Virus record (IMG/VR): IMGVR_UViG_3300046000_000535
Span: 1-20,422 of that record
Strand: one strand, 5' to 3'
From: a virus
DNA length: 20,422 nucleotides
The notes beneath the pieces are model-generated. The model was given only the letters and a program-made list of their open reading frames with translations. It was not told the origin of the DNA and searched no databases. Below are positions 8,402 to 11,157 of the stretch, piece by piece (the first letter of the stretch is position 1; each line of letters opens with the position of its first letter). The position numbers and the translations under genes were made by a program.

Positions 8402-8731
8402 ATGAAATACGCAATCATTCAAGATAACAAAGTTGTAAACGTCGCAATTTCTGATTCTCCTTTAGAAAGCAATTGGATTGAATCTGATACTGCTGCAATT
8501 GGCGACACTTATGAAAATGGTCAATTTATTAAACCGCCAGTAGATGTTGAGGGTCAAAAAGCATACGTTCGTGCATTAAGAAATGCTCGTTTGCTAGAGA
8601 CAGACTGGACTCAACTTGCAGACTCACAAGTTGACAAAGCAGTTTGGGCAACATACCGACAAGCATTGCGAGACATGACAACTCAGGATGGCTTTCCACT
8701 TGAAGTTGAATTTCCAACTTTACCAACATAA
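8402..8731 (+). CDS. Phage tail fibre assembly chaperone
   Basis: 109 residues from the ATG at 8402 (AAGGAA just before it). The N-terminal half is a small beta-rich part (MKYAIIQDNKVVNVAI). The C-terminal half fits the phage tail assembly chaperone family: RALRNARLLETDWTQLADSQ (58-77), then VWATYRQALRDMTTQDGFP and a proline-rich end. Proteins of this family follow fibre genes and help fold or assemble fibre tips; they are usually not kept in the particle. Here it lies directly after three fibre-type genes, as expected. The next gene, a tiny membrane protein, starts two bases after its stop. Confidence 0.85.
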   Translation: MKYAIIQDNKVVNVAISDSPLESNWIESDTAAIGDTYENGQFIKPPVDVEGQKAYVRALRNARLLETDWTQLADSQVDKAVWATYRQALRDMTTQDGFPLEVEFPTLPT

Positions 8732-8733
8732 CC

Positions 8734-8826
8734 ATGCAAGACTGGGCTGAAGCATTCATTGTTGCGGCCTTTATCACCATCTTAATTGTGTGGGGGACGT
8801 TCACCCTTGTTTGGATTTGGGGATGA
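8734..8826 (+). CDS. 30-residue single-span membrane protein
   Basis: A complete small frame from ATG 8734 to TGA 8824-8826. It starts two bases after the chaperone gene's stop and ends in a four-base ATGA overlap with the next gene. No clear ribosome site is seen, so translation by re-initiation is likely. The product is almost entirely hydrophobic: after MQDWAEA, residues 8-29 form one membrane span rich in isoleucine, valine, threonine and tryptophan. There are two acidic residues before the span and no basic residue anywhere. It could be a small holin-like or holin-modulating protein given the lysis neighbours, but size and hydrophobicity alone do not show that. The overlaps on both sides argue that it is a real gene. 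Confidence 0.6.
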   Translation: MQDWAEAFIVAAFITILIVWGTFTLVWIWG

Positions 8827-8975
8827 AATGGGTACTGGTAATTTTTATGCTAATGCCGGGATCATCCAGTCAAAAGAAAAAAGATGAATATCGCTGTGTG
8901 CGTTGGGCGTGGACGGGGGATGTCTACAACCGTAAAGTAGTATGCCTTGAGTGGCAAAAGGTTGAGAGAAAATAA
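8823..8975 (+). CDS. 50-residue protein with N-terminal signal/anchor and two cysteines
   Basis: 50 residues from the ATG at 8823 (ATGA overlap upstream; GGGG just before), ending in a TAATG junction with the next gene. A frame opening at 8790 would run deep into the previous gene. Residues 1-12 (MKWVLVIFMLMP) form a short hydrophobic core that could be a signal peptide or anchor, followed by a polar GSSSQKKK stretch. The rest contains two cysteines (RCVRWAWTGDVYNRKVVCLEW), likely to pair if the protein reaches the periplasm. There is no lipobox cysteine after the hydrophobic part, so it is not an ordinary outer-membrane spanin. Function unknown; a role in the envelope during lysis or superinfection is inference. 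Confidence 0.6.
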   Translation: MKWVLVIFMLMPGSSSQKKKDEYRCVRWAWTGDVYNRKVVCLEWQKVERK

Positions 8976-9466
8976 TGGATCCTGTTACCGCACTAGCGGG
9001 TCTTCAAAGTGCCATAGGGCTTGTCCGTAAGGCGGCGCAGGTGGCAAATGACCTAGGTGGCCTAGGCGTGATGGTTGGTCGTATGTTTGACGCTAAGAGT
9101 CAGGCGACCAAGGCGATGGTTGAAGCCAAGCGGTCAGGCAATAAGTCTAACTTTGCATTGGCGATGCAGATAGAAAACACGCTGATGCAGACAGCCAAGC
9201 TGGAGGCGGAGTTGCAGATGCTCTATATGCAGACGGGCAATATAGATGTGTGGAACAAAATCAAGGCCAGAGCCGCTGAGATGGACAGGGATGATGCCAT
9301 AGCCGCAAGGCAAGCTAAAGCAGAAGAGAAGAAGCGCAAAGAAAAAGCACAAGAAGAACTAGAACTAGCGGCGGGTCTTACAGCAGGTGCTTTTGTTTTA
9401 ATGATGTTTGTGTTTGGTTTGTACGAGTTGTTTGAGTTTTGTGTTGTTAACAGGTGTGGGCGGTGA
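8975..9466 (+). CDS. Coiled-coil protein with C-terminal membrane anchor
   Basis: 163 residues, start overlapping the previous stop by one base. Residues 1-40 are helical and glycine-containing (MDPVTALAGLQSAIGLVRKA). Residues 55-95 are a second helical part. Residues 97-131 are a highly charged helix (KAEEKKRKEKAQEELE) likely to form a coiled coil. Residues 132-153 form a single hydrophobic span (AGLTAGAFVLMMFVFGLYEL), leaving a short tail with two cysteines. The basic stretch before the span suggests the long N-terminal part stays in the cytoplasm. I recall similar MDPVTAL proteins from marine and freshwater phages, but know no function. It does not match the layout of a usual inner-membrane spanin, where the span is at the N terminus. 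Confidence 0.7.
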   Translation: MDPVTALAGLQSAIGLVRKAAQVANDLGGLGVMVGRMFDAKSQATKAMVEAKRSGNKSNFALAMQIENTLMQTAKLEAELQMLYMQTGNIDVWNKIKARAAEMDRDDAIAARQAKAEEKKRKEKAQEELELAAGLTAGAFVLMMFVFGLYELFEFCVVNRCGR

Positions 9467-9600
9467 ATGAATACCAAAAACAGTTTGACCTTTTCCTTAA
9501 AGTTTTTGTCAGGCTATGCATTGCGTGGTGGGTGCTTGGATTGCTCCGCTTCCTGCCAGACGATGTTGCTAAAAAAGTATTGGGGATGTTTGGACTATGA
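9463..9600 (+). CDS. 45-residue membrane-associated protein, GTG start
   Basis: A short frame from GTG 9463 to TGA 9598-9600. It overlaps the previous gene by four bases (GTGA) and the next by four (ATGA), the same coupling seen along the cassette. The product starts NEYQKQFDLFLKVFVRLCIA and continues with a tryptophan- and leucine-rich segment (WWVLGLLRFLP), then a short amphipathic end with DDVAKKVLGMFGL. Residues about 11-32 could be one membrane span or a surface-lying helix. GGGCG (9458-9462) lies immediately before the start. It is not in any family I recognise. The tight overlaps at both ends are the main support for its being real. Confidence 0.55.
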   Translation: MNEYQKQFDLFLKVFVRLCIAWWVLGLLRFLPDDVAKKVLGMFGL

Positions 9601-10208
9601 GTGACGAAAAGCCAGTAGACATATTGAGCAAGGTGCTGTCCTATGTGGATAGCCCGTTTAAACTGTTTGCGCTGATACTGATGGCGGTGTTTGCGTTCTC
9701 TGGTTACTTTGTCTGGCAGAATCAAGAACTGCTAATGGGCGCATACAAAGAGTCTAAGAAGATGCCAAGCATTGTCGAGGACAGGGTGGAAGACGCTGCC
9801 GCCCACTTGTTCAAAACCACCAACGCCACCATTGTTGCCGTGTTCAAAGTAAACCCCATGTTTGGAACCCGAGTGCTGTACCGTGCTTACACCAAAGAAG
9901 GTCGAGACAAAACCAACGATGGGCTTGACGTTGGCCTGTTTACACAGAACGCATCTAACAACGCAGATGTGGTTAAGCTGATGGCCAGCGAGATACCTTG
10001 CGGAGAATACCGTTCAGCGCAGTCTGAGATAGGTTTGTGGTACATCGCCAAGGGGGTTGCTTACACTTGCCGCATCAGCATTCCACCTGACCCAAACAGA
10101 TTTATAGGCCAGATTACTGTGGGGTGGGATAGTGAGCCTGCCGACATTCAGGTAACAAGAACCATGATGGAAATTGCAGCCACCATGCTTTCAAGGAGTA
10201 AACAGTAA
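9597..10208 (+). CDS. Membrane-anchored protein with GAF-like soluble domain
   Basis: 203 residues. Residues 20-40 (PFKLFALILMAVFAFSGYFV) form one membrane span after a short charged start. Residues 41-70 are a linker helix (LMGAYKESKKMPSIVEDRVE). Residues 72-203 form a soluble alpha/beta domain: strand NATIVAVFKVNP, strand RVLYRAYTKEGR, and a closing WYIAKGVAYTCRISIPPDPN plus FIGQITVGWD, an order that resembles GAF-type sensory domains. The final helix carries TRTMMEIAATML. Cysteines at 135 and 158 may pair. It lies directly before the muramidase with a one-base TAATG overlap. A role in sensing conditions for lysis or in placing the lysis proteins is possible but unproven; the GAF resemblance is by eye. 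Confidence 0.65.
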   Translation: MSDEKPVDILSKVLSYVDSPFKLFALILMAVFAFSGYFVWQNQELLMGAYKESKKMPSIVEDRVEDAAAHLFKTTNATIVAVFKVNPMFGTRVLYRAYTKEGRDKTNDGLDVGLFTQNASNNADVVKLMASEIPCGEYRSAQSEIGLWYIAKGVAYTCRISIPPDPNRFIGQITVGWDSEPADIQVTRTMMEIAATMLSRSKQ

Positions 10209-10723
10209 TGGCTCAGTTTGAACCAGCTTTTGAGCAAATGATTAGAGATGAGGGCGGCTACGTCCTTCACGAAGTACCCGGCGACACGGGCGGCATGACC
10301 TATGCAGGTATTGCCCGTAACAAGAATCCTCAGTGGCCCGGTTGGGCGTTGGTGGACAAAAAAGAAATGGGTGGCTCTTTGACTCCCATGGTGCGTGAGT
10401 TCTACCGTACAGAGTTTTGGGACAAGATGCGCGGTAACGAGATTTCAAACCAAGATGTGGCTAACACCATCTTTAACTTTGGTGTAAACGCTGGTATGGG
10501 CATGGCTGTGAAGCTGGCGCAACTCGTGGTAGGCGCTACCCCTGACGGTGGCATTGGCGCAAAGACTATTGAGCGACTCAACCAGATTCCTGACGGCCAG
10601 CGGTTTAAGGAGCAGTATGCTTTGGCAAAGATTGCCCGCTACGTTGAGATATGCAACAAGAACCCCGTGCAGGTTAAGTTCCTCAAAGGCTGGCTAAACC
10701 GCACATTGAAAGGTTTGAAATGA
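10208..10723 (+). CDS. Endolysin, GH108-type muramidase with peptidoglycan-binding domain
   Basis: 171 residues, the usual length. The N-terminal part fits the glycosyl hydrolase 108 family (N-acetylmuramidase): FEQMIRDEGGYVLHEVPGDT with the expected catalytic glutamate at E15 and the D-T-G-G-M-T block (26-31) followed by YAGIARNKNPQWPGW. The C-terminal part fits the family's peptidoglycan-binding region: QDVANTIFNFGVNAGMGMAV (82-101), then LVVGATPDGGIGAKTIERLNQ. It would cut the sugar backbone of the cell wall between N-acetylmuramic acid and N-acetylglucosamine. No signal peptide is visible, so it needs a holin to reach the wall, and the holin gene overlaps its end by four bases. This pairing confirms a lysis cassette. 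Confidence 0.92.
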   Translation: MAQFEPAFEQMIRDEGGYVLHEVPGDTGGMTYAGIARNKNPQWPGWALVDKKEMGGSLTPMVREFYRTEFWDKMRGNEISNQDVANTIFNFGVNAGMGMAVKLAQLVVGATPDGGIGAKTIERLNQIPDGQRFKEQYALAKIARYVEICNKNPVQVKFLKGWLNRTLKGLK

Positions 10724-11157
10724 GCTTACTAGCCGTTGGATCAATTATTGAAGCCGTGGGTAAGGTTGCGGGCGACCTGATTACCACTGACAAAGAAAAA
10801 ATGGAAATGGAGATTGAGCAGCGTAAACTCGATCTTGAAGAAAAGCGCATTGACCAAGCCACAGACCTAGCACAAATTGAGGTTAATAAAATCGAAGCCG
10901 CGTCCTCTAGCGTGTTTGTTTCAGGCTGGAGGCCAGCTATTGGATGGATTGGCGTAGCGGCTATGGGGTATCAGTTCCTGCTTTACCCGCTGTTTCAGTG
11001 GGCATGGAAATACTTGCAGGCTATGGGCTGGGTTCCTATTGGCATGGATCCCCCGCCAGTACTAGACGCAGACCAACTTTGGGTGATATTATCAGGCATC
11101 TTGGGCATTGCCGGTATGCGTTCTTTTGAGAAGACCAAAGGCGTTGCCAGTAAATAA
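10720..11157 (+). CDS. Holin of the three-TM (GTA-type) family
   Basis: 145 residues, ATGA overlap with the endolysin. Residues 1-22 form an amphipathic to hydrophobic helix. Residues 24-60 are a charged helix (KEKMEMEIEQRKLDLEEKRI) likely to form a coiled coil. Next come the SGWRPAIGWIGVAAMG block (68-83) running into a first clear span, then FLLYPLFQWAW. The last span is LWVILSGILGIAGMRSFEK (120-138). The S-G-W-R-P motif and the G-x-x-G-M-R-x-x-E-K ending are characteristic of the phage holin 3TM family. The protein would form membrane holes that release the endolysin at a set time. Gene order (endolysin before holin) is reversed from lambda but not rare. It ends the coupled cassette; the next gene begins after ten bases. 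Confidence 0.85.
   Translation: MSLLAVGSIIEAVGKVAGDLITTDKEKMEMEIEQRKLDLEEKRIDQATDLAQIEVNKIEAASSSVFVSGWRPAIGWIGVAAMGYQFLLYPLFQWAWKYLQAMGWVPIGMDPPPVLDADQLWVILSGILGIAGMRSFEKTKGVASK

Follow-up and report, generated by a model that had tools for sequence, protein, structure and literature searches.

According to one description, the domain structure of the phage T4 holin T is shared by no other holin and comprises a cytoplasmic amphipathic helix, one transmembrane segment, a bridge helix and a globular domain (PMC12162936). In T4, the lysis inhibition that superinfection triggers is directed at holins of the T type, and the antiholin RI carries conserved cysteines and a signal peptide that can be cleaved off (PMC8385771, PMC11413866). 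In a published survey of phage genomes, about 13% had no recognizable spanin (PMC6139136). Here, a freshwater phage fragment of 20,422 bases (IMG/VR record IMGVR_UViG_3300046000_000535; this whole stretch is called the window) was analyzed. Seven consecutive open reading frames (ORFs), g1 to g7, at positions 8734-11157 form a host-lysis cassette of mix-and-match composition. The cassette is real and ordinary in kind, with a candidate T-type holin that had gone unrecognized and a conserved, unsolved accessory set. It is probably best explained as a modular lysis cassette in which g5 is a holin of the T4 gpT type, g7 is a second holin or a partner and g1-g4 are accessory proteins that tune the holins.

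A modular lysis cassette

Rechecking of the ORF coordinates confirmed the seven genes, six overlapping junctions and protein sizes given in an earlier note on this DNA. The products of g1 to g7 have 30, 50, 163, 45, 203, 171 and 145 amino acids, and each junction has an overlap of 1 or 4 bases (g1/g2 ATGA, g2/g3 TAATG, g3/g4 GTGA, g4/g5 ATGA, g5/g6 TAATG, g6/g7 ATGA). Elsewhere in the window 4-base overlaps occur at only two junctions (16022 and 18455). Because start, stop and frame of all seven ORFs are maintained in dozens of distinct homologues, the ORFs are not due to chance. The pooled ratios of nonsynonymous to synonymous substitution rates (dN/dS) were 0.28 for g1, 0.12 for g2, 0.19 for g3, 0.075 for g4, 0.044 for g5, 0.035 for g6 and 0.024 for g7. 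All seven genes are thus under purifying selection, and the small genes, as the note had held, are real and conserved. Among adjacent pairs in IMG/VR relatives, the offset was -4 at g3/g4 in 95 of 96 cases, at g4/g5 in 69 of 70, at g6/g7 in all 15 and at g2/g3 in 64 of 77, while g5/g6 had an offset of -1 in 11 of 12.

Two of the genes belong to known families, from which they differ in nothing notable. The g6 product (10208-10723, plus strand) is a GH108 muramidase endolysin with a PG_binding_3 domain, and both Pfam matches lie above the gathering score (PF05838, E = 2e-16, 60.7 bits; PF09374, E = 3e-10, 40.5 bits). The g7 product (10720-11157, plus strand) is a holin of the GTA_holin_3TM family (PF11351, E = 6e-23, 82.1 bits against a cut-off of 24.8) and matches the holin family phrog_3427. 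A scan of isolated phages for the GTA-holin family had no positive control and was not used. In view of g5 (see below), the cassette can be read as a lysis module whose endolysin is of the GH108 type and whose second holin is GTA-type, which supports the lysis-linked membrane cassette proposed in the note.

The gene content of such modules was compared in 116 distinct loci with enough flanking sequence. As similarity to g2, g3 and g5 was the basis for choosing these loci, the counts are not population frequencies. The endolysin varied between GH108, M15, GH24 and GH19 types. About 40 loci had no g2 next to g3, and most of these retained g3, g5, endolysin and holin. The g5 gene was absent from 24 loci, some of which kept g2-g4, and several loci had no g4. 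Because gene content varies in this way, the short overlaps are regarded as joints between exchangeable genes and not as the mark of an obligatory seven-part machine, which the note had deduced from them. Judged by the refuting condition that the note itself named, relatives that keep endolysin and holin without small genes such as g2 mean that this deduction fails.

In the favored explanation g5, a transmembrane protein with its N-terminus inside and its C-terminus outside, would probably accumulate in the inner membrane and trigger at a set time. Triggering would let the g6 muramidase reach the cell wall, with g7 as a second holin or partner. The accessory set would consist of the small transmembrane peptides g1 and g4, the tail-anchored helical protein g3 and the exported two-cysteine microprotein g2. 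These proteins would act on the holins, most likely by tuning their assembly or timing rather than by disrupting the outer membrane. A weakness of this assignment is that gene position is its sole basis. It could also be supposed that g1-g4 have no part in lysis and are merely co-transcribed late genes that serve, for instance, to exclude superinfecting phages or to take over the host. Their presence indeed varies independently of endolysin and holin type, and g3 has no functional match. However, g1-g4 were always found in a holin/endolysin neighborhood. They directly adjoin lysis genes in almost all of the settings seen, even in phages whose holins and endolysins are unrelated, and the 4-base overlaps are conserved. 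A function outside lysis is therefore considered rather unlikely.

Comparison of g5 with the T4 holin

The g5 gene (9597-10208, plus strand) was identified as a candidate for a T4 gpT-like (class III) holin from an AlphaFold2 model, Foldseek searches of PDB and BFVD, profile alignment with hhalign and gene position. Hydropathy analysis gave a single hydrophobic segment at residues 13-41. The model, built from 15 sequences with a predicted local distance difference test (pLDDT) score of 72, contained helices at residues 9-15, 20-41 (transmembrane) and 43-55, followed by an alpha/beta GAF-like domain, which is predicted to be periplasmic and has two invariant cysteines at positions 135 and 158. 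The helical moment of residues 7-17 was 0.56, compared with 0.47 for the equivalent part of T4 T. As modeled, g5 thus has the layout of a T-type holin, with a short cytoplasmic amphipathic helix, one N-terminal transmembrane segment, a bridge helix and a large C-terminal domain. The GAF-like domain had been suspected in the note, which recognized a role only for the last two genes; by structure, g5 is T-holin-like as well.

When the g5 model was compared with 350,542 PDB chains using Foldseek, ranks 1-4 were all taken by periplasmic domains of T4 holin T (6pxe, 6px4, 6psk), with E values of 2.7e-5 to 8.5e-5 and target TM (template modeling) scores of 0.61-0.67. The matches in BFVD included proteins named holin, class III holin and T holin. 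Alignment of the g5 profile with eight T-family holins by hhalign gave a probability of 55% and an E value of 1.2e-4 over the N-terminal 82 residues. Weak matches to the holin family phrog_860 were present in 9 of 13 members of the g5 family; otherwise the sequence search with g5 yielded only phrog_31287, which is annotated as of unknown function. The Pfam scan of the g5-family members gave nothing relevant, and PDB sequence searches with g2 and g5 gave nothing meaningful.

Both proteins have the amphipathic helix, the single transmembrane segment, the bridge helix and the GAF-like periplasmic domain; they are of similar length (203 amino acids for g5 and 218 for T), and homologues of g5 in isolated relatives stand in a lysis-gene context. 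The cysteines differ, being located at positions 175 and 207 in T. Unlike the T gene, g5 overlaps the endolysin gene and has a second holin beside it.

Gene position also points to a holin. In the Edwardsiella phages GF-2 and Edno5 the gene order is Q, g5 homologue, endolysin and Rz, so that the g5 homologue occupies the holin slot. Two T4-like phages, Cronobacter S13 and Citrobacter Ci1, have a g5 homologue and no match to the T profile, which did match T4 itself as a control. Among the 116 loci, g5 opens the holin/endolysin block in 92, whichever type of endolysin comes next.

Several results weigh against the assignment of g5 to the T type. Phytochrome GAF domains followed closely behind T4 T in the Foldseek search, starting at an E value of 1.2e-4 compared with 2.7e-5. 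Because they score nearly as well, the fold can be called GAF-like, and the assignment to T rests on the ranking together with the layout. The Pfam family Phage_holin_T (PF11031) matched none of the 13 g5-family members, although T and a T5-like homologue scored above 375 bits as controls; g5 is therefore not a formal member of this family. No homologue of the antiholin RI was found in the window, S13, Ci1, GF-2 or three large relatives, and it is possible that phages with g5 and without RI use an unrelated antiholin. Finally, about 90 of the 92 loci with g5 also contain a holin-like gene with two or three transmembrane segments.

Because g5 is nearly always found with this multi-segment holin, it might not form holes itself but act on the holin that follows, either as an antiholin or as a membrane-bound regulator with a GAF fold. 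The loci without g5, which have the holin with two or three transmembrane segments alone, would fit such a role. In GF-2 and Edno5, however, nothing between Q and endolysin except the g5 homologue is a candidate for the holin, and S13 and Ci1 have this homologue in the absence of T. A regulatory role of g5 is therefore considered unlikely. Overall, a distant relationship of g5 to the hole-forming protein with which T4 times the bursting of the cell is very probable, and g5 is likely to be a T-type holin in its mode of action, with hole formation as the predicted activity.

In one scan of IMG/VR, 444 stretches encoding a g5-type protein were found. If g5 is of the T type, T-type holins would be widespread in uncultured phages. 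The family phrog_31287 would then be a testable holin family that could support lysis inhibition outside the T-even phages.

In four of the loci without g5 (L130, 6793-7101; L105; L103; L142) the g5 slot is filled by a protein of 102 amino acids. It has an N-terminal transmembrane segment and a likely coiled coil, a layout resembling that of an inner-membrane spanin, and no family match.

g2, g3 and the outer membrane

The g2 gene (8823-8975, plus strand) encodes a microprotein of 50 amino acids with an apparent cleavable signal peptide followed by a module of about 30 amino acids (EYRCVRWAWTGDVYNRKVVCLEWQK) that contains two invariant cysteines. On inspection of the alignment (A3), the N-terminus was short and hydrophobic with Ala/Ser sites; cleavage is a prediction. 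Two forms were distinguished. In the first, the N-terminus resembles a signal peptide and the module reads EYRCVRWAWTGDVYNRKVVCLEW, while the second, found in other phages, begins with a proline-rich stretch, lacks an export signal and has xECVRWSWSSDRxxVWCLxW as its module. The g3 gene (8975-9466, plus strand; alignments A2 and A8) encodes a protein of 163 amino acids that is predicted to be all-helical and matches phrog_32327 (unknown function). Its AlphaFold2 model (pLDDT 78) has four helices, the long C-terminal one of which passes through the membrane as an anchor and is followed by a short tail with two cysteines. The N-terminus is probably located inside. In the fold search, only uncharacterized phage proteins gave significant E values with g3. 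In MW202879.1 (L320, 2990-3605) a g2 homologue was left unannotated, g3 having been called from an upstream GTG.

Like T4 RI, g2 has a pair of cysteines and, by prediction, a signal peptide; the periplasmic domain of g5, in turn, resembles that of T. The g2 protein might therefore be a Sec-exported functional analogue of RI that brings about lysis inhibition through binding to g5 at this domain. However, g2 is smaller than RI (50 and 97 amino acids, respectively) and has no convincing similarity to it (22% over 37 residues). Nor is it tied to g5: exported g2 was present without g5 in 29 distinct loci and g5 without g2 in 47, and the form without a signal peptide also occurs beside g5. Given the independent occurrence and the lack of convincing similarity, a strict partnership of g2 with g5 in the manner of RI is not supported, and an RI-like function of g2 in general appears quite improbable.

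The exported form of g2 was associated with the cysteines of g3. A two-cysteine tail of g3 was present beside exported g2 in 77 of 78 distinct pairs, compared with 16 of 64 beside the non-exported form, L338 being counted as the proline-rich form. As the loci are related to one another, the Fisher value for this association does not give a fair probability. A shared periplasmic complex of g2 and g3 is possible. As 40 two-cysteine g3 proteins stand without g2, the association is only partial, and a disulfide-linked g2-g3 pair was not retained as an explanation. A wider proposal is that g2 and g3 form a two-part lysis regulator of a new kind in which exported g2 pairs, perhaps by a disulfide, with the periplasmic cysteine tail of g3 and gates whichever holin has been acquired, including g5. 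In freshwater phages such a regulator might work as a timer that senses superinfection. This is regarded as speculative and is given little credence.

No ORF with a lipobox was present in the lysis region of the window, in agreement with the note. This proves little about spanins, because the window is a 20,422-base fragment. A complete-looking relative of 56,616 bases with end repeats (contig L020) contains g1 and g3-g7. Neither g2 nor Rz nor a credible lipobox ORF was found in it, although a scan of this kind did pick up the controls, Rz1 and the unimolecular spanin (u-spanin) of phage CRP-171. In this relative the disruption of the outer membrane stays unexplained.

The note had considered envelope disruption without standard spanins. 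Three relatives (L146, L155 and L141) carry g2-g4 together with an Rz-type spanin and an Rz1-type lipoprotein, all covered by recognized spanin families; Rz was present in G015-G017. Roseobacter phage CRP-171 (OR420737.1) has a relative of g3 and, in addition, a u-spanin with a lipobox and a transmembrane segment, which is hidden by a late annotated start. Because g2-g4 occur beside Rz/Rz1, and a g3 relative beside a u-spanin, they are not obligate replacements for spanins. The resemblance to Rz/Rz1 and unimolecular spanins consists of small membrane proteins, cysteines and overlapping lysis genes. In contrast to these spanins, no g2 or g3 homologue seen has a lipobox, and the transmembrane segment of g3 is C-terminal. 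One alternative is that g2 and g3 break the outer membrane instead of Rz/Rz1, either as a spanin of non-canonical type or as a pair of secreted peptides resembling a disruptin. This alternative would agree with the lack of a lipobox spanin in the lysis region of the window and in the 56.6-kb relative, with the small size, predicted export and net positive charge of g2, and with its pairing with two-cysteine g3 tails, but it is very improbable and was dropped as the principal reading, given the coexistence with true spanins, the absence of g2 from the very relative without a spanin, and the many g2 proteins that have no signal peptide and are nearly neutral in charge. The g2-g4 set is a common yet unnamed part of such lysis regions, and since some of these phages have no recognizable spanin, how the outer membrane is breached becomes a testable question.

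Two proteins of these relatives were noted in more detail. The product gp44 of CRP-171 (L321, 3989-5029) is annotated from an internal start; the upstream start gives MKLRLLVSLSLFLVMAGC..., with a C-terminal transmembrane segment, and the protein is likely the unimolecular spanin. A cysteine-rich lipoprotein with a lipobox (LLAGCKDVYRYPCQNP...) is encoded in the lysis region of L146 (6355-6585) and of L155, both of which have Rz.

Small membrane peptides and neighboring genes

The g1 gene (8734-8826, plus strand; 54 distinct homologues) encodes a peptide of 30 amino acids in which hydropathy analysis gave a single transmembrane segment. It has a DWAEAF N-terminus and no basic residues. The g4 gene (9463-9600, plus strand; 60 distinct homologues) starts with GTG and encodes a membrane peptide of 45 amino acids with one transmembrane-like stretch, by hydropathy, and an amphipathic C-terminal part. 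An alternative frame of 45 amino acids that starts with ATG and overlies g4 (9467-9604) is probably not a gene; of 109 distinct homologues, 67 have a stop codon in this frame before 40 codons have been read.

Proteins of 64-76 amino acids with a transmembrane segment and a coiled coil are often encoded just upstream of g1 or g2 in relatives (L146, 5114-5329; L083, 5715-5909; L026, 5000-5230). They have no family match and an XhlA-like layout. In L024 an ORF of 165 amino acids resembling an HNH homing endonuclease (1862-2359) lies between the endolysin and the GTA-type holin, and L029 has a gap of similar size at this place. In L085 (1965-2420) a protein of 151 amino acids without a family match, with a transmembrane-like N-terminus, is encoded between g3 and the holin.

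The upstream boundary of the cassette is the gene for a tail-fiber assembly chaperone (8402-8731, plus strand; Phage_tail_APC, PF16778, E = 1.8e-18; PHROG annotation tail fiber assembly), which ends 2 bases before g1. Tail-fiber and tail chaperone genes are located upstream of the cassette and a virion structural protein downstream. Scans of bacterial and archaeal genomes with g3 and g5 gave no matches and hence no clue to the host. In a close relative, IMGVR_UViG_3300046002_000303 (24,775 bases), g2 and g5 are identical to those of the window.

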